DNA of 51,825 bases from the NCBI RefSeq assembly GCF_005405105.1, contig NZ_BJDK01000025.1, positions 1 to 51,825 of the forward strand, read 5' to 3'. The notes beneath the pieces were generated by a model. That model saw only the letters and a list, made by a program, of their open reading frames with translations. It was not told where the DNA came from and did no database searches. The translations under genes were made by a program, and so were the position numbers. Shown piece by piece: positions 4,542 through 49,490 of this stretch (positions within the stretch are counted from its first letter, which is position 1; every line of letters begins with the position of its first letter). The stretch is from Lactiplantibacillus dongliensis. GTDB taxonomy: Bacteria; Bacillota; Bacilli; Lactobacillales; Lactobacillaceae.

Positions 4542-5849
4542 ATGGACGAAGAGCTGTTGGGGGAACATTTTCAGATTTTTGAAACATTTATTGTCAGTAT
4601 GATGGTTATGCAGGAGACTGATTTATTCGCCTTGAAGAAAGGGCTAGATGAGAGTATTTTTGAGCACCAAGGATTTGATTTGAGACTATTTCAACGTGTT
4701 TTAGATTTGAAAAAGGGTGGTCTGACCGATGTTCAAAGTGAGTCTAAAGAAGTGCAGTTTATTTTTGAACATTTAAGATATGATGCTGATAGTGCGCAGA
4801 TTAGTACGACTAACGACTATGTTCGGAGTCTGATCGGACAGTACAAGTTAGAGCGTAGTAGGGCACAAAGTGAATTGCAAAAGCAGTATAGCCTGCTGGT
4901 TGTCAATGCGTGCAGTGTTTTTGAAATCTTAATCGGAAGTTTATTAGCCTTTGAATTATTACATGTTTATAGTCCTAAAGCGTATGTTGCAAAACAAACG
5001 ATTACCTTTGAAGGGTTACTTGCAGCGGGAAGTATTGAAAATGTACATGCTGAATTGATTGAAGCATTTATTCGACGTAGTCAGTATGCTTCAGTGGCGA
5101 GTTGGTTAAACGATTATCTTAAAATTTGTACAACTACAAAAGTTTTCAAGAATAAATTTGATAAAAATGAAGATGACTTTCAAACGTTGATAACTCGTAT
5201 TTTTGAAATGCGCAATATTTTCGTTCACAATAACGGTATTGCAACTGAACGGTATCAAAAATTAGGTGGGACGACTGATATAGGTAGTCAAATTAGTCTT
5301 AGTGAAAAACAAGTATTAGAGGTTATTGATGCCATCCTTGATACTGGGATTAGACTATTTATGCTTAACTTAGAAAAGAATCACCAGTGTCGGGACAGTA
5401 AGTATCGTATTCGGTTGAATAATTTGCCAATTGATTATCTACGCCATCAACCAAAGTCTTTTAAAGTTCTTTACGATTATTTAATAGGAATGGCAATATT
5501 AGATGGAAGCGACGTTAAAAAAAGCCAAGATGAATGTGTGACATATCTGATGAATGTATGGTTATGTTATCATTTTTTAGCTACGGATTTTAACGTTGAG
5601 CTAACTAATTATCGTGAAGCAATTAATTTTTTGAACGACGGAATGCAATCCTCTAATTTAAAATTTGAGTTATGGTGGTCGCTTGTTCAAAAAAATCAGC
5701 ACAATCAAGTTACGGCAGCAATTAAGTTTTTAGAATCGTTTGATAGTTTACAACAAAAGCTAAATAATAGTATTTTGCCGATTTTTGATATCTTGAAACA
5801 AGATGAGATGTTTGTTGAATATATAAAATATCTCAAGTATAATTCATAG
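4542..5849 (+). CDS. HEPN-motif protein of unknown function
   Basis: I do not recognise a named family. The protein is mostly alpha-helical and soluble and has no signal peptide. Residues 224-229 read R-N-I-F-V-H, an exact RNxxxH match to the R-x4-6-H ribonuclease motif of HEPN domains, preceded by a helix (residues about 95-150) rich in hydrophobic and acidic residues. HEPN proteins are often toxins, abortive-infection RNases or RNA-binding partners. The ATG at 4542 is preferred because GGGGGA lies about 7 nt upstream; an in-frame ATG at 4506 has no site. Base composition is clearly more AT-rich than the flanking repair and cell-wall genes, which suggests acquisition. A 53-aa ORF follows 22 nt downstream and is probably co-transcribed. 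435 aa. Confidence 0.6.
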   Translation: MDEELLGEHFQIFETFIVSMMVMQETDLFALKKGLDESIFEHQGFDLRLFQRVLDLKKGGLTDVQSESKEVQFIFEHLRYDADSAQISTTNDYVRSLIGQYKLERSRAQSELQKQYSLLVVNACSVFEILIGSLLAFELLHVYSPKAYVAKQTITFEGLLAAGSIENVHAELIEAFIRRSQYASVASWLNDYLKICTTTKVFKNKFDKNEDDFQTLITRIFEMRNIFVHNNGIATERYQKLGGTTDIGSQISLSEKQVLEVIDAILDTGIRLFMLNLEKNHQCRDSKYRIRLNNLPIDYLRHQPKSFKVLYDYLIGMAILDGSDVKKSQDECVTYLMNVWLCYHFLATDFNVELTNYREAINFLNDGMQSSNLKFELWWSLVQKNQHNQVTAAIKFLESFDSLQQKLNNSILPIFDILKQDEMFVEYIKYLKYNS

Positions 5850-10217: not shown

Positions 10218-10452
10218 TTGGTTGTTCAGTGCTAGCCGATTAATTCCAGTGAGTTACCGCTTTGGTTGACTTGGATTGATACTGGCACGTGGTGGGCATG
10301 TTTGCGAGCCACAAGGCGGTCTCGTCAGCCAGTCCGCCTTGCGCTAATGAATCGTATACTTGCAATTTGCCGAGGGTGTTTTAATAGTAGTTGCTATTAA
10401 TATGTGATTTATGGACAATTGAAAATAGTCTAATTTTTGAACCCTTAGTTGT
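10218..10452. other. intergenic region holding a degraded copy of the dispersed repeat (R10)
   Basis: No coding potential seen. Bases about 10255-10350 match one module of the repeat family found at 37.6, 42.7 and 46.0 kb: CACGTGGTGG, GTTTGCGAGCC and GCGGTCTCG are recognisable. The copy is diverged, and its outer stem no longer pairs well. Confidence 0.6.
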
Positions 10453-28680: not shown

Positions 28681-28870
28681 CGGCTAGTGCGAGTTAAATT
28701 TACGGTGTGCCACGGTTGGCGGCTAAAATGCTGGCACGCCAAGGTCAGTTTTGAAGCGCAATTGGGGTCTTTAAAACTGACCTTAGCCCAAATGCAACCA
28801 GCGTGGCTAATTAAGTCAACTAGCCACTTATTAGTGAACCGGACCGGGCAGGATTATTTAACGGGATGGG
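28681..28870. repeat. degraded copy of the dispersed repeat (R28)
   Basis: GGCTAAAATGCTGGC, AGGTCAGTTTTGAAG and TCTTTAAAACTGACCTTAG match one module of the family seen complete at 42.7 kb, including the TTTTGAAG ... CTTTAAAA hairpin. The 68-codon ORF over it is a by-product of the repeat. Confidence 0.65.
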
Positions 28871-28948: not shown

Positions 28949-29010
28949 TCAGTCGGATTGGTCCGTTGACTGCCTGGTTCGTAAACTTCCCAGGATAAAA
29001 AACCAAGAAC
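28949..29010 (+). promoter_or_regulatory. candidate preQ1-I riboswitch
   Basis: CCTGG (28973-28977), loop starting TTC, CCAGG (28990-28994) and then an A-rich tail ATAAAAAACCAAG copy the order of the preQ1-I aptamer: stem with GGTTC, a C-rich 3' side of the loop, and AAAAAACYAAG tail. The downstream genes fit queuosine salvage. Pseudoknot pairing between loop and tail is weak here (CTT with AAG), so the call is tentative. An additional hairpin lies just upstream (28949-28972). Confidence 0.5.
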
Positions 29011-29035
29011 TTCATGTTAATCGGAGGTAGGAGAA

Positions 29036-33339: not shown

Positions 33340-33925
33340 TTTTAAGTCTCCTTTTGTTTATCAGGTGATAAATGAATAGCTAAAGCATACCAGCATTTGT
33401 TATCTTTGACAAGTAGGTTGACAAAAAATGAACTGTAAAGTTCAAATTGGCACTAATTAAGCTTACTGATCAAAGCCTGAGAAATGCCGGTGTACTAAGG
33501 ACTAGCGATGCAGCGATGCGTTTTAGAAACCGGTAGGCCAATTAGTTAAAATAATTGTTAATTCAAAGCTTGTTGGTAATCAACGACACCACTGAGCCAA
33601 TTCAGTGCCGCTCACCGTTAGCTAATGGAGATTAAAAAATTAACACTTGATTATTTTCAGTTCGGTCATTTAGCCGAGAGGTTGGTTCCTAAAATGCTCA
33701 GCCGTGTCGTTGGTCTTAGTGCGAGTGGTCTGCTCGGACTTAGACCAAGGCCAGTTTTGAAGACCGGGTTTTGGCTTCAAAATGGCCCATGGCGTTCCAG
33801 CGTTTTAGGAACCAACCGGCAGGCGGCAACTTCAATTATCACCAAGCGCAAGGATTAAATATTTCGATTGTAAGTAAACGACTGGTATCATAAAGTTAAT
33901 GATGTGAAAGGCAGGTTAACAGGAA
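33340..33925. other. 586-bp non-coding gap with hrtB promoter and repeat R33
   Basis: The left 100 bp hold the hrtB promoter; bases 33581-33829 are a dispersed repeat copy. The rest shows no coding potential. A 77-codon frame at 33625-33858 lies inside the repeat and is not a gene. Confidence 0.6.
33581..33829 (+). repeat. dispersed modular repeat, copy R33
   Basis: One complete module (about 33679-33829) with outer arms GTTGGTTCCTAAAATGCT and GCGTTTTAGGAACCAAC and inner arms TTTTGAAG/CTTCAAAA. It is preceded by only the stub of the second module (GACACCACTGAGCCAAT). Confidence 0.85.
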
Positions 33926-37514: not shown

Positions 37515-37574
37515 TGGTGCATTGTTTTTACGTGTTGTTTAAACCTTGATGACGCTTGGGGCTTGGGATTGAAC

Positions 37575-37924
37575 TTGCCACTCTGGTTGGCCCAGAATCG
37601 GCTGGAACGTGGTGGCCACGTTTGTGAGCCGAAGAGCGGTCTCACAAGCCGGGCTTTGACTAACCCGGAAAAATCACCGGCTAAGTCAAACGACACCACT
37701 GAGCCAATGCTGGGCCGCCTGACGTTAACTAGCAGGTGTTAAAAAATGTTTTCAGTTCTGTTATTTAGCCGAGAGGTTGGTTCCTAAAATGCTCAGCCGT
37801 GTCGTTGGCCTTAGTGCGAGTGGTTTACTCGGACTTAGGCCAAGGCCAGTTTTGAAGACCGAACTTTGGCTTCAAAATGGCCCACGGCGTTCCAGCGTTT
37901 TAGGAACCAACCGGCAGGCGGCAA
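37575..37924. repeat. dispersed modular repeat, full-length copy R37
   Basis: About 350 bp bounded by inverted ends TTGCC...GGTTGG and CCAACC...GGCAA. The left module (37589-37716) is in the minus orientation: outer stem GGCCCAGAATCGGCT with AGCCAATGCTGGGCC, inner hairpins 37622-37647 and 37655-37690. The right module (about 37775-37924) is in the plus orientation with outer arms GTTGGTTCCTAAAATGCT / GCGTTTTAGGAACCAAC. A 50-bp AT-rich spacer separates them. No coding capacity. Confidence 0.88.
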
Positions 37925-38032
37925 TTACAACTAGCACTAAGTGTAACTAGTTACTTTAGCACCAACTGGTAGGCGGTAGTCCTAACTAACATCGTGAGTC
38001 ATGGATGCTTAACCCAGTGGCAAGTTGAATGC

Positions 38033-38536
38033 TCACTCCAAATGATGGCGTTGTCGAAATACGGACCGATTCTTATCCAGATGCTGGTGAATCCGGTCAA
38101 TCAATAATTGCCGGCGCACCGGGGAAGTGGGGGTCAACGGCGTTAGTGGAAACCGGTCATCGATATTGATCGTTGGTGGATGAATCGCCATGGGAGCAGC
38201 TAAGGCAATGGCTAAGCTATCGGGCTGATGCTGATACATCAAGTCGTTACGAATGGCGAAGCGAATTTGATTCTTAGTTGCTAAACAAATATAACGGTCG
38301 AGAATATCTTGGTCTAGCAGCCCATGCAGTAACAATTGGTAGTTGGGATGAGCTAACATTTCGGTTCGTAATTCAGGCGAGTAGTCGCGCAGGAGCGCTT
38401 GGGTAAAGGTAATCCCCAAGTCTAAGCGTTCGTGAAAAGTCCCTAAGTTACGATGCTGTTCGTCGGGATGTAAGACCGGCGCACCAAAGATGGCATTTTG
38501 TAGATGTTTATCCATCTGGTCTTCGGATTGTGACAT
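38033..38536 (-). CDS. YueI-family (DUF1694) cytoplasmic protein
   Basis: 167 aa. IFGAPVLHPDEQHRNLGTFHERLDLGIT and ERLD...TEMLAHPNYQLLLHG match DUF1694, named after B. subtilis YueI. The structure is known to resemble ribosomal-protein-like folds, but the function is not defined. I chose the ATG at 38536 because AAAGGA lies 9 nt upstream; an upstream ATG at 38590 adds residues not seen in the family. Confidence 0.78.
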   Translation of the reverse strand: MSQSEDQMDKHLQNAIFGAPVLHPDEQHRNLGTFHERLDLGITFTQALLRDYSPELRTEMLAHPNYQLLLHGLLDQDILDRYICLATKNQIRFAIRNDLMYQHQPDSLAIALAAPMAIHPPTINIDDRFPLTPLTPTSPVRRQLLIDRIHQHLDKNRSVFRQRHHLE

Positions 38537-38646
38537 GATTTCAAGTCCTTTCCAAAGAGTGGCCTGATCGGTAAATGTAACCGTTTCCACTCAGAGTCGT
38601 TACCTTAATTGTAAATAAGTTCACGAATTTAGCAAATTAAGATTTT

Positions 38647-40002
38647 CTAAAGCTGAGTATCGGTGACTGGATTTTCAATTGTTAACGTGGCCGTAAAGGT
38701 TTGTTCGGCAATCTGATAAGCCACGTTAACTTCCTTAGTCGCCAGTTGCTCAATACTACTAAGGCCGTACCCTAAGTGGCCTGGTTTAGTGGTAAAACGA
38801 CTCTTTTTGATGCGACTTAAATTAATCGTATCGTTAGCCGAGATTTTGTTTTGAATCACGAATTGAACGGTGTGAGCTTGTTGGTCCAAAGTAATTAATA
38901 AATTAACTAAATGATCGACTTGACTGGCAGCGTCAATGGCGTTATCCAATAGGTTGCCTAAGATCCGGACGATTTTAATATGCGCATTGGGTTGCAGTTT
39001 GATCGGTTGTAAAATGGCTAGTTGTAACTTGACTTGGCGACTGGCGGCTGCCTCGTATTTAGAGTAAATCAAGCCGCTGATTTCTGGTGCTTGTAAGTCG
39101 CGGAGTTGTTCAGGTCCCGCGCTGGATTTTAAATTATTACCAGCCGGGAGGACTTCATTTTCGAAATAGTGCTGCAATCCTTGGACATCTTGATTTTGAA
39201 TATATTGTGACATACTTAATAAGATGTTTTGGTAGTCATGCTTGAATAAGTGGAGCTCCTGATTCCGATGGCTGAGCAGCTCATTATAACTGGACATTTG
39301 CCGGAGCAATTGGGCATCGGTGAGACGGCTGTTTTTGCTGTTGACTAAGTAAAAGCCGATAATGCCGAAAATAATGCAAGCAGCAATTGCCACGTACATT
39401 TGTAAAACAACGTTTAGTTCTAGGACGTAAGCGTATCCCAGGATATATAGGCCATAGAATAATAGGACCAGCCAATAGTCGCTATGGTCGATCTTGGCGT
39501 GTTGGAAAAAGTCGGCAGCTGAAACGTTAACCACCCATCGATGGGCGAGCAGCCCGATGATGATAATGATTGGTAAACAGATGACGACGGCGCCAAATAA
39601 GTTCAGATTGGCTGCCCAATCATGCATGTGAATCGATTGCCGTAAGCGCATGGGGGCATCGGAAGACATTAACCATTTTAAAAATACCCCGGCCAAGCCG
39701 CCGATTAATCGTTTGACGGCGTTTAAAAAGATTGATAACGGCAACATCAAGATCCATTTGGTATACAGTAGCCGGGCACTCATAATGGTGTTGACGACGG
39801 TGATGGGGACGACCCAGAAAAAGACAAGTGGCACTTGTGGAAACCAGACCGTGGCTAATTGGCCAAATATCCCGAAGAAGATGACTAGGCTGACCCAAAC
39901 CGCACTTAATTTCCAAGTCAGATACTCTCGGAAGGCTAGCATAAAAATCATCATTTCATAGCCGCCCGAGGTTAGCGAGAGAGCGTACAGGAGCGCTTCC
40001 AT
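38647..40002 (-). CDS. GHKL-type sensor histidine kinase, quorum-sensing (AgrC/PlnB-like), orphan
   Basis: 451 aa. Six hydrophobic helices fill residues 1 to about 215, the HPK10 peptide-receptor layout. The phospho-acceptor is in FKHDYQNILLSMSQYI, the N box is ILGNLLDNAIDAA and the G box GHLGYGLSS. Such kinases sense secreted peptides and signal to LytTR response regulators. None is present within the window, and no peptide ORF is seen in the 200 bp upstream. GAGGTG precedes the ATG. Confidence 0.87.
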   Translation of the reverse strand: MEALLYALSLTSGGYEMMIFMLAFREYLTWKLSAVWVSLVIFFGIFGQLATVWFPQVPLVFFWVVPITVVNTIMSARLLYTKWILMLPLSIFLNAVKRLIGGLAGVFLKWLMSSDAPMRLRQSIHMHDWAANLNLFGAVVICLPIIIIIGLLAHRWVVNVSAADFFQHAKIDHSDYWLVLLFYGLYILGYAYVLELNVVLQMYVAIAACIIFGIIGFYLVNSKNSRLTDAQLLRQMSSYNELLSHRNQELHLFKHDYQNILLSMSQYIQNQDVQGLQHYFENEVLPAGNNLKSSAGPEQLRDLQAPEISGLIYSKYEAAASRQVKLQLAILQPIKLQPNAHIKIVRILGNLLDNAIDAASQVDHLVNLLITLDQQAHTVQFVIQNKISANDTINLSRIKKSRFTTKPGHLGYGLSSIEQLATKEVNVAYQIAEQTFTATLTIENPVTDTQL

Positions 40003-40130
40003 AGATATAACACCTCATTTGTTAAAAAATTTAGTCTAGAAACAGTTTGTAAGTTGACATTATTAATCATAAATCAATTTGTAATCGTTGCCACGTAAAA
40101 TTTGCAAAAAAAGGTAACTTTTTGCTTGCC

Positions 40131-40161
40131 TTCGACTAACTAGAAGCTAGTACCCTATAAC
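40131..40161 (+). promoter_or_regulatory. possible MerR-type promoter with 19-bp spacer
   Basis: TTCGAC (40131-40136), 19 bp, TATAAC (40156-40161), with the palindrome ACTAGAAGCTAGT inside the spacer. It resembles the DUF554 promoter (shared AACTAGA core). Confidence 0.5.
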
Positions 40162-40198
40162 TTATCAAAATAAGCAGTATTGAAAGGGGCTAATTAGG

Positions 40199-40771
40199 AT
40201 GCAAAATATCTTAATCGCGGGGATTATCCCGCAACAACGCATTCAACAACTTTTACAAACAATTGATCAGATGCTGGCAGTTACTTTAACCGTCTACGCC
40301 CCCGCGGTCCATCGTTCGGACTGGCCCGCCGACGTTACCGTGTTAACTGGCGACCTGAGTGATCGTGGTGGGTTAACTGCGGCGGCAATTGATCAAGATA
40401 TTATCTTAGCTCAATTAGATTCTAAGGCGCTGGTTGCGCAAACACAATCCTTAATCGCTGTTTTAAATGCCCAGCCAACCACGCGATTGATGCTGGCTAG
40501 TCCGGATAGTATTTTATCGATAACGCAAAGTCAGGTGAAATGGTATCAGCAACGACGACAACGGCAACAATTGGCGGCCATTCGGATGATGGAACGGCAG
40601 TTGCGTCATAGTCAGCTTGATTTTACGTTAATTGAAGGGACGACGGCTGCAACCACGGCAATCTACACGCGTGCGATGCAACATGATTGGTTAACCGCAA
40701 TGCCGACGCGTCGGGCGTTGAGCTTACTCGATTACTTAACGGTCGATGTCAGTTGGCCGCTAGTTGCTTAA
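40199..40771 (+). CDS. degenerate NAD(P)-binding (NmrA/SDR-like) protein
   Basis: 190 aa. It starts with a beta strand and loop (NILIAGIIPQQRIQQLLQT) at the place of the Rossmann GxxGxxG, but the glycines are missing. VTVLTGDLSDRGGL and the later LMLASPDSI, RQLRHSQLDFTLIEGT and YTRAM have the rhythm of SDR/NmrA proteins. The canonical YxxxK is not clear. The cofactor site may be lost, so function is unknown. AAAGGGG precedes the ATG, and the promoter may be MerR-controlled. Confidence 0.55.
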   Translation: MQNILIAGIIPQQRIQQLLQTIDQMLAVTLTVYAPAVHRSDWPADVTVLTGDLSDRGGLTAAAIDQDIILAQLDSKALVAQTQSLIAVLNAQPTTRLMLASPDSILSITQSQVKWYQQRRQRQQLAAIRMMERQLRHSQLDFTLIEGTTAATTAIYTRAMQHDWLTAMPTRRALSLLDYLTVDVSWPLVA

Positions 40772-40882
40772 GCGGAAGCTGGAGTTATTTTGTAATATAT
40801 TTAATGTTATCATCATCAGGGATAGTATGAATTATATTATTAATTAACTTAATTAACGATGATAGAAATTAGGTGTGAAAGC

Positions 40883-41629
40883 ATGCCAAAACATATGCAG
40901 CGGCGCCGGTGGCCGGTAGTGCTGATTATCGGCGTTGTTTTAGCCGTGGCCGGTGTCACCGTGGCCCAAGTCTCGGATTGGATCGATGCCGCCTTGACTG
41001 CGAAACCAACTACTACGGCTAAGTCCAAGGTAACCAAGCAGGTCAAGTTAGATGTGCCATTGATTAATCAAATGACGGCGCCACGACTTTATAATGGGTG
41101 TGAAGTCACGTCACTAGCGATGATGTTAGCCTATCATCATCTGGATGTCTCAAAGAATGCGTTAGCAGCTAAATTGCCGAGCGTGCCTTTAACTTATGAC
41201 AATGGCGAACGTGGTAACCCGAATACGGGTTTTGTTGGTGATATTACTGGTGATCAACCGGGATTAGGGGTTAACCATGGCCCTATTTATCGGTTAGCTA
41301 AGACGCAAACGAGTCAGGTCAAAGATTTGACCGGTTCGGACTTCTCAGCGGTAATTAAGCAGTTGGAAAAGGGCCGGCCCGTCTGGACCATAACGACATT
41401 GACGTTTGCCCCGGTTAGCAGCTTACAGACGTGGCAGACGCCGACTGGTCCGGTTAAAGTGACCTATGACATGCATAGTGTGGTGATTGTTGGTTTTAAC
41501 CGCGCTAAAAAGGTGATTTACATTAATAATCCGTATGGTCACAAGCAACAAGCGGTCAACTGGACCGATTTTGCTGCGGCTTATCAGCAGATGGGGCGCC
41601 AAGCCATCGTGTTAACTTTAGAGCATTAA
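40883..41629 (+). CDS. membrane-anchored C39-like papain-fold protein
   Basis: About 248 aa. Residues about 8-28 are an uncleaved hydrophobic anchor, then a Thr/Lys-rich linker. The C39_2 domain reads LDVPLINQMTAPRLYNGCEVTSLAMMLAYHHLDVSK, with the nucleophile Cys in NGCEVTS. The His is in YDMHSVVIVGFN and the Asn/Asp in YINNPYG. This family acts outside the cell as peptidases or uncharacterised hydrolases in Firmicutes. The ATG at 40883 is preferred over 40859 because AGGTG and GAAAG precede it. Confidence 0.82.
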   Translation: MPKHMQRRRWPVVLIIGVVLAVAGVTVAQVSDWIDAALTAKPTTTAKSKVTKQVKLDVPLINQMTAPRLYNGCEVTSLAMMLAYHHLDVSKNALAAKLPSVPLTYDNGERGNPNTGFVGDITGDQPGLGVNHGPIYRLAKTQTSQVKDLTGSDFSAVIKQLEKGRPVWTITTLTFAPVSSLQTWQTPTGPVKVTYDMHSVVIVGFNRAKKVIYINNPYGHKQQAVNWTDFAAAYQQMGRQAIVLTLEH

Positions 41630-41670
41630 AAAAATCCCACTCAGTCAATTTGACTAAGCGGGATTTTTTT
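41628..41670. terminator. bidirectional intrinsic terminator
   Basis: AAAAAATCCCACTCAGTCAA with TTGACTAAGCGGGATTTTTT, between the C39 gene and the convergent HTH gene. Confidence 0.88.
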
Positions 41671-41672
41671 AG

Positions 41673-41912
41673 CTATCGAGTCTGATAACGCTCACCAGTC
41701 CGCGCAAATTCTTGCACGAGCGGATCTAAATTAATGTTAAAGAAAGCGGCTAAGGCAAAGAGATGATTAATCGAGATTGAGTAGCCATTTTCGTAACGTG
41801 ATAACATGGAAGGTGAGATCCGGACATGGTATTGAGCTGTAATTTGTTGCGAAACCGCGGCTAAGGTTAACTTTTCTGATCGCCGGGTACGCTTTAGTTC
41901 ATCTGCTAACAT
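41673..41912 (-). CDS. small XRE-family HTH protein
   Basis: 79 aa. The helix-turn-helix is LTLAAVSQQITAQYHVRISPSMLSRYENGYSISINHLFALAAFF, a Cro/CI-type domain filling the whole protein. The ATG at 41912 is preceded by GAGGTGG; upstream ATGs lack spacing. Divergent from another small HTH gene 121 bp away, so the two may control each other. Confidence 0.8.
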   Translation of the reverse strand: MLADELKRTRRSEKLTLAAVSQQITAQYHVRISPSMLSRYENGYSISINHLFALAAFFNINLDPLVQEFARTGERYQTR

Positions 41913-42033
41913 CCACTGCCACCTCATCCCTATTTTACCCATAATTTTGGTAAAAGCTATAATTAAATGTTGATGATAACGCTTAATTGGTGTAAGATTC
42001 CCTTATGGGGAACAAAAGAAAGAGGGTGGTCAA

Positions 42034-42234
42034 ATGGAACCTAATAATGATGTGTTGTTATTGGCTTATTTTAAGCAGAATCGGATTACCCAGCAGGACT
42101 TGGCAGATTCAATCGGTCGCAGTGTGAACACGGTATGGAACAAACTCCACGGTCGGTCGCATTGGAATACGGCAGAAGTCCAGCAGTTGCATGATGATTT
42201 TGGCGTGCCAACACAGTATTTTTTTCGTAATTAA
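42034..42234 (+). CDS. small HTH DNA-binding protein
   Basis: 66 aa. NRITQQDLADSIGRSVNTVWNKLHGRSHWNTAEVQQLHDDFGVPTQYFF is a phage-repressor-like XRE domain. GAGGGTGG precedes the ATG. It is followed by a terminator at 42323-42349. It may be a remnant of a mobile element's control switch; targets unknown. Confidence 0.75.
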   Translation: MEPNNDVLLLAYFKQNRITQQDLADSIGRSVNTVWNKLHGRSHWNTAEVQQLHDDFGVPTQYFFRN

Positions 42235-42322
42235 CTGGATAAAAATCTTTGGAGGAGCATCGGCAGACTACCGGTGAGGTTCAGTTATTGTCAGTAAAAT
42301 GAATAAGTGTTTGTAAAAGGAG

Positions 42323-42349
42323 AGTTCGCGAATTTCGTGAGCTTTTTTT
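42323..42349 (+). terminator. intrinsic terminator after the small HTH gene
   Basis: AGTTCGCGA / TCGTGAGCT, 3-nt loop, seven T. Confidence 0.8.
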
Positions 42350-42354
42350 ATTTA

Positions 42355-42523
42355 GAGTGTGAGTGAAGGTGGTTTGAGGGTGAGCATTGCCTAGCCAAAT
42401 GAGTATCCGGCGGGCTTTCCGGATGGTCATTTAGCGTAGCAAGCGGAATCCTCAGCCTGAACGAGCACGTTTCAAATAAGAGTGTGAGTGCGACCGGGTT
42501 GCCCATGAGCATTGCCTAGCCAA
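42355..42523 (+). repeat. spaced direct repeat of about 44 bp
   Basis: GAGTGTGAGTG and TGAGCATTGCCTAGCCAA occur at 42355/42381 and again at 42480/42506, with the same internal spacing and a 125-bp period. The region between is unrelated and non-coding. Confidence 0.7.
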
Positions 42524-42653
42524 GTGGAGTGGACAGGTCAAGTGAGCACATTTCGGCAACTTAAAAGCCAACCTAATAAACCATATCGTCTTACCCCCAA
42601 CTATATCTCACGTCATCCCCCACCAAAATTACGCTTGGTGCTAGTTGAACTTG

Positions 42654-43006
42654 TTGCCTGCCGGTTGGTTCCTAAAATGCTGGAATGCCATGAGCCATTT
42701 TGAAGCCCGGTCTTCAAAACTGACCTTGGTCTAAGTCCGAGCAGACCACTCGCATTAAGGCCAACGACACGGCTGAGCATTTTAGAAACCAACGGCTCGG
42801 CTAAATTGACTGAACTGAAAGTAATCAATCGTTAATTTTTTAACCACCGTTAGTTAACGGCGGGCGGGCCAGAATTGGCTCAGTGGTGTCGTTTATCTTG
42901 GTCGGTGATTTTCCGACTTAGATAAAGCCCGGCTTGGAAGACCGTTCTTTGGCTTCCAAACGCGGCCACCACGTTCCAGCCGATTCTGGTCCAACCAAAG
43001 TGACAA
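42654..43006. repeat. dispersed modular repeat, full-length copy R42
   Basis: Inverted relative to R37. The left module (42654-42812) has arms GTTGGTTCCTAAAATGCT and AGCATTTTAGAAACCAAC; an AT-rich spacer follows, then the right module: outer stem GGGCCAGAATTGGCT (42866-42880) with AGCCGATTCTGGTCC (42978-42992), hairpin 42893-42925 (TTATCTTGGTCGG/CCGACTTAGATAA) and hairpin 42934-42959 (TTGGAAG/CTTCCAA). The apparent ORFs at 42512-42703 and on the opposite strand are by-products. Confidence 0.88.
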
Positions 43007-43359
43007 CTTAAACCAACTAGCATCAAGCATTCAAATTCTATAGTATCAGGCTACAAGTCACTGAAATCCAACGCAACTGAAATAAAATACAGTGTGAATT
43101 TTTTCAATTATTACATTTTCTTCAAACTTTTGTAAGGTTGTGTAACTTAATTGCAACGTTAATGTTGTCGAATCTAAAGAAAACTAGCTTATTATTAAAG
43201 TAATTGGAAAATATTGAATTTTTTGTACATAAAAATTAAGGGATGACAAAAGGTTTAACGAATTAGGTGTTTTCCAACATAACTTTAAGGGGGGCTACGG
43301 GTTAATCAGGGTTTGAGTTAGTGAGTAAACGTTGTTAAACAACAGAGAGAGGTCAAACA
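43007..43359. other. long AT-rich upstream region of the muramidase gene
   Basis: No ORF with a ribosome site. Contains TGTAAG (43131) and TGTAAC (43141) as a direct pair with a 10-bp period. The actual promoter is not clear. Confidence 0.4.
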
Positions 43360-44760
43360 TTGAATAGACAACAATTAAAAACTGCGGCTAAGGGGTTAGC
43401 TATCGCGGCGTTGGCAGTCGTTAGTCTGGGTGTTACCCAAACGGTCACGGCTAATGCGGCGACAACGGCCGCAATTCCCGATATTTCTGAATGGCAGGGG
43501 AAGTTAACGGCTACGCAGGTTCAGAATATGAAGCCAAATGTGTCGTTTGTTATTAACCGGCGTCAATATGGTTCAGACTATATTGATAAATACGCGGCTA
43601 ATAATACGAATTTGTATGTGAAGTACGGGGTGCCATTTGGCGAATATGCTTACTCGCAGTTTGTGAGTGCAAGCGATGCTAAGCAAGAAGCTAAAGATTT
43701 CTACAATCGATCCAATAAAAATGCGGCGTTTTACGTCTTGGACTTTGAAGTCAATACGGTTAAGTCTGGGACAACCAATGCGGCGGTTAAAGCTTGGTAT
43801 GATGAGATGCGATCATTGACGAATAAAAAGTTAATTTTCTATTCTTATCAATCCTTTGCAACGACGTATGCCAATACGGCGCGGCAGACCTTTGATGCGC
43901 AGTGGATTGCCAACTATTCTTATACACCAACGATTCCATTTGCGCTGTGGCAATATACGGACGCTTATTACATGTCAGCGTTGAACAAGTACATTGATAA
44001 CAGTCGCGCCACGGTTAGTGTGCATCCGATTAGTTGGTGGACGGCAGCTGGCGGGGTGACGAATAATGTCACCACTGATACGAGCAACAATTCGAGCAAC
44101 AAGCCAGCGCCGGTGACTCCCGCCAAACCGACGGCATACAGTAAATATAAGTTGGGTCAGCATGCCTATGTGCATAAGGCTGCGTCAACTTATTATGGAA
44201 CGAATACTGCCATTCCAAGTAGTGCTAAACAGAAATTCTATAAGATTACAGCCGTAAAAGCGGTTAATAGTGGTAATTCAGCCCAAGCACTGTACCTGAG
44301 CGGCTTGAATCAATGGGTCTTATCACAAGATGTTGATGCCTACTGGTATGGACAACATGGCGCCTATAATTTAACCAGTAATTTAAACTTGTATTCGGAT
44401 GCTGCTTTGAAACATAAAGTCGGCGCTAAGTATAAGAAGGGGACTCAACTAAAAGCCAAGATGATCAAAAACGGTAAAGTTCGCCGGTTAAAGACGAGTC
44501 AAGGCTATGTCAGTGCTAACGTGAAATATTCTACCCCTGCCTACCTCGAGTCGGTGCCAAGCAGTAAGACGATTACGACGACTAGGAAGATTTATGCCTA
44601 TTCGAAGTCATCATTGAAGAAGGCTTATCGGCAAAATGGGGTGGCCGCCGGAACGAAGCTAACCATTCAAAAAGTTGGTCGCCGTTCGACTGGCTCACGT
44701 TACTTTGTGACGACTAATGGACAATATATCACAGCTAATAAGAACTACGTGACGAATTAG
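43360..44760 (+). CDS. secreted GH25 muramidase with C-terminal SH3-like wall-binding repeats
   Basis: 466-aa precursor starting at TTG 43360 (AGAGAGAGG 6 nt upstream). Signal peptide ends ANA-AT (residue about 34). Residues about 38-225 are the GH25 lysozyme barrel: IPDISEWQGK, YVLDFEV (the catalytic Asp/Glu pair, DFE) and FALWQYTDAYY. A Thr/Asn/Pro linker follows, then two or more SH3-like modules (YKLGQHAYVHKAAS..., SSKTITTTRKIYAYSKSS...) of the type that bind the wall in lactobacillus autolysins. It cuts the N-acetylmuramic acid-N-acetylglucosamine bond. It leads a run of three secreted-protein genes. Confidence 0.87.
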   Translation: MNRQQLKTAAKGLAIAALAVVSLGVTQTVTANAATTAAIPDISEWQGKLTATQVQNMKPNVSFVINRRQYGSDYIDKYAANNTNLYVKYGVPFGEYAYSQFVSASDAKQEAKDFYNRSNKNAAFYVLDFEVNTVKSGTTNAAVKAWYDEMRSLTNKKLIFYSYQSFATTYANTARQTFDAQWIANYSYTPTIPFALWQYTDAYYMSALNKYIDNSRATVSVHPISWWTAAGGVTNNVTTDTSNNSSNKPAPVTPAKPTAYSKYKLGQHAYVHKAASTYYGTNTAIPSSAKQKFYKITAVKAVNSGNSAQALYLSGLNQWVLSQDVDAYWYGQHGAYNLTSNLNLYSDAALKHKVGAKYKKGTQLKAKMIKNGKVRRLKTSQGYVSANVKYSTPAYLESVPSSKTITTTRKIYAYSKSSLKKAYRQNGVAAGTKLTIQKVGRRSTGSRYFVTTNGQYITANKNYVTN

Positions 44761-44773
44761 GAGGTTATTTTTG

Positions 44774-45442
44774 ATGCAATTTAAACGAAAGCTTCAATTA
44801 GGAATCGCGACGGCCACTGGGGCGTTAGCGATTGGACTAATCGCTGTACCCTCGGTTAATCATGTGCTGCATGCCGCTTCTAACAATGTAACGACTGTTA
44901 GTCAAACAGCAGCCCCAACGACGGTTAAAGCCACGGATCAAACGGTCAAAGCAACGACGGCTAGCGGGACGAAGTCGAATTATCGGGTCAGCTATGTGAA
45001 GTCAGGCACGCGCGCTAAAACCGCGACTTACCAGAAGACAGCTTATAATACTAAGCATACTGCCACTGATAAGGTTGATTACATTAACAATGTCAAAGGT
45101 GATACCGTGACGTTAAGCAATGGGACTACCGCTAAGCTGCAAGGGACGATGGGTCGCGTTTATGTCCATTGGAACACGAATAATTGGTCAGTAACGGCGA
45201 TTGCCAATACGGCCGACGTGCAAAAGAATCCCGCTAAGTTTGCCCAACAAGTGAATAATCAGCTTGAAAAGCACAACTTAACAACGACTAATGTCACCCA
45301 TGGTTCTGTGACGGTCTATGATCAAGCACAATCTGGTCAAGCGAATACCGTTAAATGGCAAAAAGCTGATCAGGTCTACCAAGTTAAGGGGCAACAAGCC
45401 AATACCGCGTTAAAGATTGCGGCGGATGCGCAACGTCATTAA
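44774..45442 (+). CDS. secreted protein of unknown function
   Basis: 222 aa. The signal peptide ends HAA-S (residue about 35). The rest is Thr-, Asn- and Gln-rich with a predicted alpha+beta C-terminal domain (VYVHWNTNNWSVTAIANT...). GGAGG lies 9 nt before the ATG, which is 13 nt after the muramidase stop, so the two are co-transcribed. No family recognised; a partner or regulator of the muramidase is possible. Confidence 0.65.
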   Translation: MQFKRKLQLGIATATGALAIGLIAVPSVNHVLHAASNNVTTVSQTAAPTTVKATDQTVKATTASGTKSNYRVSYVKSGTRAKTATYQKTAYNTKHTATDKVDYINNVKGDTVTLSNGTTAKLQGTMGRVYVHWNTNNWSVTAIANTADVQKNPAKFAQQVNNQLEKHNLTTTNVTHGSVTVYDQAQSGQANTVKWQKADQVYQVKGQQANTALKIAADAQRH

Positions 45443-45457
45443 AGCACCACAATTTAG

Positions 45458-45482
45458 GGTGCTGGCTAGTCCAGCGCCTTTT
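45458..45482 (+). terminator. intrinsic terminator, possibly leaky
   Basis: GGTGCTGG / CCAGCGCC with a 5-nt loop and only four T, located between the second and third secreted-protein genes. Confidence 0.65.
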
Positions 45483-45505
45483 GTGTCGCAAAAGGAAGTG
45501 GCAGG

Positions 45506-45889
45506 ATGCAAAAATTTCTTTGGGGTTGTTTAATGATTGGCCTATTAGGGGTCACAACGGTCAGTGCCAGTCAGCTGACAACACCGGTTGTGCCAACTAG
45601 GGTGACTAAATCAGCGTTAACGGTCCAAAAGCTGGATCCGGGGACGGCGCAAGCGGTACAACCAACGGCCGTGATTGGAACTTGGCGGCTAGCCGATCAA
45701 CGATTAAAGTTACGAGCTGACGGCAGCTATCAGTTAACAATTGGGGAACATCAGCTCGATGGTTATTGGCAATTATCTGGTCAACGAACGTTAACATTGA
45801 CCGATGCGGTGGGACAACAAAAGCACGGATTAGTGACGATGCCTCACTTACACTTTGCCGATCAGGCGGATCATTGGACTAAGTGTTAA
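45506..45889 (+). CDS. small secreted protein, lipocalin/DUF-like beta barrel
   Basis: 127 aa with signal peptide (cleavage near VSA-S, residue 22). GTWRLADQRLKLRADGSYQLTIGEHQLDGYWQLSGQRTLTLTDAVGQ is a run of beta strands like the N-terminal half of small lipocalin-like domains; the protein ends in Cys. Same direction as the muramidase operon, after a weak terminator. Function not known. Confidence 0.6.
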   Translation: MQKFLWGCLMIGLLGVTTVSASQLTTPVVPTRVTKSALTVQKLDPGTAQAVQPTAVIGTWRLADQRLKLRADGSYQLTIGEHQLDGYWQLSGQRTLTLTDAVGQQKHGLVTMPHLHFADQADHWTKC

Positions 45890-46012: not shown

Positions 46013-46280
46013 TCTGCCGGCTGGATGCTAAAATGCTGGAGTGATACGGCTGAGTAGTTTAGCATTCAATATCTCGGCTAAATAGCTGAACTTAAAATAT
46101 CAATTGTTAATTTTTTTAATTCCCGTTATTTAACGACGGGCGGCCCAGCATTGGCTCAGTGGTGTCGGTTATCTTAGCCGTGGTTTTCGGCTTAGATAAC
46201 CCCCGGCTTGCGAGACCGTACTTTGGCTCGCAAACGCGGCCACCACGTTCCAGCCGATGCTGGGCCAACCAGAGTGGCAA
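46013..46280 (+). repeat. dispersed modular repeat, copy R46 (internally deleted left module)
   Basis: The left module is shortened (46013-46085). The right module is complete: outer stem 46142-46156 with 46252-46266, hairpin TTATCTTAGCCG (46169-46180) / CGGCTTAGATAA (46188-46199), hairpin TTGCGAG (46208-46214) / CTCGCAA (46227-46233). It fills most of the 530-bp gap between the secreted-protein run and the PhzF gene. Confidence 0.88.
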
Positions 46281-46429
46281 TGTAATCCAACTAGCACCAA
46301 GCATATCTAGCTATATGGCGTACTCGCGAGTTAGTTGGATTTATGATAAAACGATTGCAAAATAATTTGAATTAGATTAAAATTAGCACATGTCGATTTT
46401 GACAAGTCTAGTTAGAGGAAGTGGCGAAG

Positions 46430-49261: not shown

Positions 49262-49490
49262 ATAACAATTAAAAGTAGTGACCTTTAATGAGTAGTGGCT
49301 AGTCCAACAGTTAAGCGACTCGGTGGATGGTGCGAACCGAGCTGTGACTAGCGATGAATTACATAAAGTGAACTGCCATTTCGGCCGGCTGATTGCGTTA
49401 TTAATCATGAGAGATCACGATTTTTAGTGATAACTTGGGTGGTAACGCGGTAAACTCGTCCCTGTTTTTAAACAGGGGCGAGTTTTTTGT
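49262..49490 (+). promoter_or_regulatory. tyrosine T-box riboswitch with terminator
   Basis: The T-box sequence TGGGTGGTAACGCGG lies at 49436-49450, followed by the terminator AACTCGTCCCTG / CAGGGGCGAGTT and T run (49453-49488). Stem I contains TAC at 49360-49362 (GAATTACATAA) as the probable Tyr specifier codon. Uncharged tRNA-Tyr binding would favour the antiterminator and tyrS expression. Confidence 0.92.

Follow-up and report, generated by a model that had tools for sequence, protein, structure and literature searches.

Which molecule is served by a non-coding repeat whose copies change in matched fashion on the two sides of each predicted stem? The question is raised by a 51,825-nucleotide contig of Lactiplantibacillus dongliensis (NZ_BJDK01000025.1, assembly GCF_005405105.1), referred to here as the window, in which an earlier note had identified three such copies, R37, R42 and R46, and had proposed that a folded RNA or a DNA cruciform is conserved. 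The repeat unit is ~400 bp in length, and its left half repeats the right half in inverted and diverged form. The unit therefore contains two ~155-nucleotide modules, M1 and M2, each a three-way junction, that lie on different strands and point outward. Terminal inverted repeats (TIRs), target duplications and a partner transposase of the IS982 family identify the element as an IS982-type miniature inverted-repeat transposable element (MITE). It is somewhat probable, on our assessment, that these non-autonomous elements carry the inverted module pair as an RNA fold that would act in either orientation, and that some old copies are selected whereas many young copies decay. In the following, G000 denotes the genome of the window, which is a draft assembly, G017 the sister genome of L. 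songbeiensis 398-2, and G009 that of L. nangangensis 381-7.

A conserved three-way fold

Covariation of the module fold is very strong. In A1, an alignment of 50 diverse modules made up of two from the window and 48 representatives at less than 83% identity, the fold comprises 42 pairs, 33 of which include double changes, and 93.9% of cells pair compared with 75.2% after shuffling. The covariation score of 0.511 was attained in none of 500 shuffles (mean 0.171, standard deviation 0.008), with the qualification that the structure was taken from the same alignment and that the shuffles do not preserve relatedness. Sliding the partners by one to three columns reduced the score to 0.04-0.11. A larger alignment was assembled from 444 distinct profile hits in several species, of which the 378 that were near full length and scored above 60 were kept; L192_371 and L200_603 were excluded from the profile, columns with at least 70% gaps were dropped, and 120 of the 378 rows supplied the structure. 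The stems are variable and the highly conserved positions lie in parts of the junction, in the hairpin end GAGACCG..CTTTGGCTC and in the CACCACGTTCCAGC side. For the three M2 modules of the window, the folding z-scores lie between -6.3 and -8.0 whichever strand is taken. The contention that a three-way fold is conserved by compensatory change, beyond what coding or simple copying would produce, thus holds in the 50 diverse modules, in the 378 copies and in an old locus common to four species that is described below.

The arms from which this contention arose were read directly in the window. Hairpin 2 is formed by TTGCGAG (46208-46214) and CTCGCAA (46227-46233) in R46, by TTGGAAG (42934-42940) and CTTCCAA (42953-42959) in R42, and by TTGTGAG (37622-37628) and CTCACAA (37641-37647) in R37. 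The arms of hairpin 1, and the change of the outer stem from AGCAT/ATGCT to AGAAT/ATTCT, also are present as quoted. The three copies are real, but the description had overlooked the second, inverted module, the TIRs that bound R42 at 42631-43030, and the mobility of the element. Relative to R42 and R46, R37 is on the minus strand. Module scores in the list that follows are those of the covariance model R1, and the stem and hairpins of R42 M2 are predicted.

42631-43030, plus strand: R42, complete IS982-type MITE carrying both modules, inverted to each other; no target duplication visible
42631-42647, plus strand: left TIR of R42, ACGCTTGGTGCTAGTTG, the same as the end of a 958-bp insertion sequence (IS)
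43014-43030, minus strand: right TIR of R42, imperfect
42652-42804: module M1 of R42, sense minus, outward to the left; 112.4 bits, E 3.9e-29
42805-42853: linker separating M1 and M2 of R42; no promoter-like site in the element
42854-43007: module M2 of R42, sense plus, outward to the right; 169.3 bits, member of the R1 training alignment
42868-42880, plus strand: 5′ arm of the outer stem of R42 M2, pairing with 42978-42990; fold -62.3 kcal/mol, z -6.7
42978-42990, plus strand: 3′ arm of the outer stem of R42 M2, predicted fold
42892-42926, plus strand: hairpin 1 of R42 M2, predicted fold
42927-42966, plus strand: hairpin 2 of R42 M2, TTGGAAG/CTTCCAA, predicted fold
37552-37944, minus strand: R37, in the opposite orientation and also with two modules
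37574-37728, minus strand: module M2 of R37; 166.2 bits, R1 training member
37765-37923, plus strand: module M1 of R37; 146.7 bits, R1 training member
46014-46304, plus strand: R46, most of M1 deleted and left end lost; site empty in L. songbeiensis
46130-46281, plus strand: module M2 of R46; 161.5 bits, R1 training member
46288-46304, minus strand: right TIR of R46
33579-33848, minus strand: fourth copy, truncated
33670-33828, plus strand: module M1 of the truncated fourth copy; 140.5 bits

Weak fragments of the element also are found at 28713-28790 and at about 10253-10373.

The strand that folds

The two strands of a DNA palindrome are equivalent in cruciform extrusion or palindrome repair, whereas a folded single strand tolerates G-U pairs (G-T in DNA), but not A-C. 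The 39 pairs of the 378-module alignment contain 13525 Watson-Crick cells, and the remaining cells, read in the sense of each module, divide into 750 G-U, 153 A-C and 263 others. Pair types that occurred eight times or more were G-U in seven instances and A-C in one, both in M1 and in M2. Wobble cells in A1 numbered 96 for G-U and 45 for A-C, and the same preference (82 versus 21) was apparent in 44 modules outside the window, which come from different genera and from further species of this genus, in an alignment that was fitted to the model. On a tree of the copies, single-step gains on branches leading to at least four copies were G-U 19 times and A-C five times, compared with 179 and 112 on leaf branches; double changes on this tree can be overcounted where copies recombine. 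The contrasts between branches and leaves, and between common and rare types, suggest that mutation is near symmetric and that long-term retention is not. The excess of G-U over A-C in the module's own sense speaks for a single folded strand, whether of RNA or of DNA, rather than for a symmetric cruciform. Of the two molecules proposed originally, the folded strand is retained and the cruciform is disfavored by this asymmetry.

Certain observations pull the other way. Pair types seen three to seven times were G-U versus A-C in ratios of 7 to 9 for M1 and 17 to 8 for M2, and those seen at most twice in ratios of 17 to 20 and 20 to 22, respectively. These counts indicate that recent copies decay almost symmetrically. 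Moreover, the sense strand out-folds the antisense strand in just two of the three M2 modules in the window. The weak asymmetry in M1 among rare and middle types is what would be expected of an effect exerted through double-stranded DNA, either by cruciform extrusion or by template-switch correction that keeps the arms perfect. The near-palindromic arms, and the imperfect inverted repeat that the whole element forms, are compatible with such an effect, as is locus L274 of G017 in which, at about 5616-5652, two module ends stand alone back to back as expected after deletion of the interior of a palindrome. Nevertheless, equal numbers of G-U and A-C among retained types are predicted by this explanation, contrary to the total cells, to the common types (14 versus 2 when M1 and M2 are combined) and to the modules outside the window, and we consider it very unlikely. 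We infer that the folded strand is probably RNA.

Mobility and the IS982 partner

The ends of the element are ACGCTTGGTGCTAGTTG and its inverse. Target duplications of 8-10 bp flank 39 of 63 TIR-to-TIR copies in G000 and G017, a set that contains some insertions common to both genomes, whereas 300 permutations of the flanks gave 0.77 copies on average and never more than 3. For G000 alone the values were 27 of 44 copies against a control mean of 0.35. A duplication was defined as a direct repeat of at least seven exact bases, or of at least eight with one mismatch. Empty sites were located in the sister species for R46, L103 and L002, and the target is single in G017 at the latter two. Twenty of the 25 sites compared were occupied in G017, the loci of which were mostly fetched because they hold modules; among the five sites called empty, L080 holds a short remnant and L110 a different module. 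At the R42 site the insertions in G000 and G017 are ~60 bp apart and in opposite orientation. Target duplications also flank L114 and L086, which internal deletion has shortened to 73 and 155 bp, respectively; the deletions may postdate insertion.

Further peculiarities were noted among the sites. At L135/L156 and at L014/L148 the copies of the two sister species seem to occupy one target site but face opposite ways, as would result from a flip in place or from two insertions at one site. At about 1159-1515 of L281, G017 has a module that resembles the more diverged M1 type of G001 at the position where G000 has the MITE.

A search for TIRs revealed 958-bp spacings in L. nangangensis that correspond to three copies of an insertion sequence. 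Its 289-amino-acid gene is intact in two copies and interrupted by stops in the third, and the product belongs to the IS982 family of transposases, scoring 222.3 bits with NF033520, for which the cut-off is 130. The ends of the IS match the repeat consensus at 18 of 18 bases on one side and at 20 of 21 on the other, and BLAST of the IS against the element detected nothing matching beyond these ends. As the two are alike at their ends only, the modules resemble cargo. Five contig ends of G000 carry 74-77 bp of the IS at 97-100% identity, which is consistent with an assembly broken at a multi-copy IS. It counts against this partnership that the G000 assembly has no complete IS of this type, only its ends at the contig ends. 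These aside, IS982 relatives in G000 have at most 54% identity.

Other means of dispersal were considered and rejected. No IS256 partner was found in G000, G017 or G009. The Y1 domain PF01797, which would signal mobilization of the RAYT type, had no match in the draft assembly of G000; the domain is present in G018 and G019, yet neither genome gives a module match. Searches for a phage or plasmid origin were without match, and four stretches with a 17-base pattern were noted in viral contigs.

Distribution of the module

The earlier note had suggested that genomic copies be collected with a covariance model, and when this was done with R1 modules were matched (E ≤ 0.001) in 19 of the 21 genomes of the genus, with more than 100 in eight of them and none in G018 and G019. 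All 143 scored candidates matched in G000, and likewise in G017. As only part of the candidates is scored in each genome (143 of 1383 in G000), these copy numbers are lower bounds. Within the family Lactobacillaceae, 72 of 251 genomes, spread over 14 of 40 genera, gave matches, and when 395 genomes were drawn from across the order, the 24 that matched at 1e-6 all are labeled Lactobacillaceae. Outward inverted pairs recur in further genera, namely g16 (L344, L346, L352 and L354), g5 and g12 (G063, G098 and G171). In the pentosus-like genome G012, 144 of 150 scored candidates matched, and many are outward-facing pairs of about 750 bp. When solo modules, and module pairs in other species, were inspected for terminal repeats, some G012 copies displayed IS982-like ends. 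Loci L359-L388 of this genome hold versions of about 0.9-1 kb in which an outward module pair encloses a middle section of 400-500 bp.

The MITE employed as a DNA query found matches in just 10 of the 21 genomes of the genus. Thus, the module is more widespread than the IS982-type MITE and, by extension, is probably older. In some species this TIR is missing from the majority of modules, as illustrated by 83 module against 6 TIR matches in G002 and 115 against 21 in G009. These counts bear on the proposal that the fold is needed in a single DNA strand while the element moves or is replicated, with the transposase or host factors reading a DNA hairpin. The folded strand of each arm is the strand that is transferred in DDE transposition, with its 3′ end at the end of the element, and each module, read in its sense from 5′ to 3′, points outward toward its own end of the element. 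DNA likewise tolerates G-T wobbles, and the high copy number suits a role in mobility. However, the autonomous IS has the same ends, resembles the element only there, and so moves without modules, and the modules that lack the TIR are difficult to reconcile with such a role, as is the retention of the fold in the old four-species copy. Moreover, we know of no recognition of single-stranded hairpins by IS982. The 73- and 155-bp derivatives do not discriminate, as they possibly are deletions made after insertion. Overall, a fold that serves as single-stranded DNA is judged unlikely compared with one that acts in RNA.

Genomic context

Neighboring genes were assessed in the window and in 80 loci that were chosen because they hold modules, after removal of open reading frames overlapped by a module for more than 40% of their length. 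One of 179 modules is within an open reading frame. Elements occupied 49 of 171 tandem gaps, 29 of 71 convergent gaps and 18 of 77 divergent gaps, a weak convergent excess (p 0.057) in counts that are rough because repeated elements were counted once and gaps were not made unique. Three observations count against the RNA reading: the orientation of modules to the gene upstream is not clear-cut (78 on the same strand and 62 opposite), the replichore strand bias in G012 is not significant (p 0.35, from the 76 strongest of 144 rows), and a scan of the R42 copy alone detected no promoter-like site within it. These features, together with the weak convergent excess, would nonetheless fit an element that has to work in either orientation, as the inverted outward pair would permit.

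The interval 43360-45889, which lies between R42 and R46, contains a glycosyl hydrolase 25 gene followed by genes for two proteins without Pfam match. A second dispersed repeat at 42345-42526 consists of two degenerate copies and has matches of ~120-180 bp in G003, G007, G008, G010 and G014, which belong to the same genus. The window also includes a T-box leader at 49269-49466 and a PreQ1 riboswitch at 28968-29012.

Old copies and young copies

A single locus with the same flanks is occupied in four other species (L198/L036, L165, L180 and L190). In this locus 309 of 312 cells pair (295 Watson-Crick and 14 G-U), one is A-C and two are other combinations, and five pairs differ on both sides among the species. 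Across four loci outside the G000/G017 comparison, 16 module comparisons at 70% identity or more revealed changes in 77 of 1248 paired columns and in 141 of 1209 unpaired columns, with 16 double compensatory changes and with single changes to G-U and A-C in 22 and 5 cases, respectively. One of 17 comparisons, L199/L279, was left out of these counts as the junctions differ; its inclusion yields 98 of 1326 paired and 158 of 1284 unpaired columns, 24 double changes, 23 G-U and 5 A-C.

Same-place copies in the two sister genomes present a different picture, for which 18 of 28 module pairs were counted (identity of at least 80%). Paired columns changed only slightly more slowly than unpaired columns (69 of 1404 and 87 of 1343, respectively), single changes comprised 22 G-U and 13 A-C, and 11 pairs had changed at both sides. 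Constraint on these copies is weak. Other factors further temper an interpretation based on selection: some of the same-place pairs arose by independent insertion at one position (L080, L003 and L128), 12 of the 16 comparisons at shared loci derive from the single four-species locus, and gene conversion among copies could mimic compensation. The weak constraint in the sister genomes, the similar numbers of G-U and A-C among rare variants, and the intergenic placement of modules with no clear orientation all would suit a selfish MITE without present function, in which the fold matters only in a few active source copies and all inserted copies decay neutrally. Such an element would not be expected to keep its fold through compensatory changes in the four-species copy and at three further shared loci, or to leave modules that persist in 14 genera, and this explanation appears decidedly unlikely, more so than that of a single-stranded DNA fold. 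We read the data instead as some old copies under selection and many young copies that decay.

A proposed role in read-through transcripts

The role that we favor for the folded strand, on the basis of sequence comparisons, is that of an orientation-independent RNA element. IS982-type transposition would spread the non-autonomous element with the inverted module pair as its cargo. As the modules are on opposite strands and both face outward, read-through transcription from either side would provide one module in the sense orientation, with an antisense module ahead of it, and the pair therefore would work in either orientation. The sense module might serve, for example, as a processing, stabilizing or insulating element in read-through transcripts through the binding of a protein or RNase. 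Some old copies would then be retained by selection whereas many younger ones would decay.

It is possible, although we stop short of calling it probable, that the modules constitute an undescribed class of structured RNA: a 155-nucleotide three-way junction, with more than 100 copies in many genomes and present in at least 14 genera of Lactobacillaceae, that is arranged as outward inverted pairs giving one functional copy per read-through and that IS982-type transposition has dispersed repeatedly. Should the folded strand be RNA, a structured RNA element of great abundance would have been overlooked in lactobacilli, a genus of well-studied food bacteria, and a mobile element would carry a conserved RNA fold as cargo. 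It also would become testable whether bacteria retain dispersed repeats for their action on transcripts in both directions. The comparison of G-U with A-C as a test of strand could tell folds of one strand apart from DNA palindromes in further repeat families.

Comparison with known systems

The module shares compensatory changes, conserved loops and junction, and strong covariation with the structured RNA families in Rfam, but differs in that it corresponds to no described family in Rfam 15. Identity with a T-box, a riboswitch or another Rfam family was rejected, as searches of release 15 returned no match to the modules: the R42 region was unmatched even at E 10, and in 16 further loci, taken from this genus and from others, the modules were free of matches up to E 1. 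The earlier remark that no such element has been described in lactobacilli agrees with Rfam 15 and with searches of open-access literature, in which no listed entry describes one. A review of MITEs (PMC10969869) contains neither IS982 nor the string 'lactobac', and a second paper (PMC2267715) includes Lactobacillus johnsonii in a table and does not use 'plantarum' in its main text.

The element also resembles other mobile repeats. ERIC, BOX and RUP are small and mobile, and stable stem-loops would form in their transcripts. To our knowledge, strand-specific covariation across many genera has not been reported for these sequences or for QMITE2. QMITE2 similarly is a small mobile repeat with transcripts that would fold into stable stem-loops, according to the review cited above (PMC10969869). 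The REP, BIME and REPIN sequences likewise are dispersed and intergenic, often occur as inverted doublets, as do M1 (minus) and M2 (plus), and exceed 100 copies in some genomes. The unit described here is ~155 nucleotides long and folds through 42 pairs into a three-way junction, in place of a short palindrome, and the Y1 (RAYT-type) transposase was not found in the draft assembly of G000. A palindromic unit of the REP type is about 20-40 nucleotides in length. A further parallel is with MITEs of the IS982 family, with which the element shares the TIRs of an autonomous IS982 element, target duplications, a non-coding nature, high copy number and intergenic location. It is set apart from them by an inverted pair of long, strongly covarying three-way modules that also occur in many genomes without this TIR.

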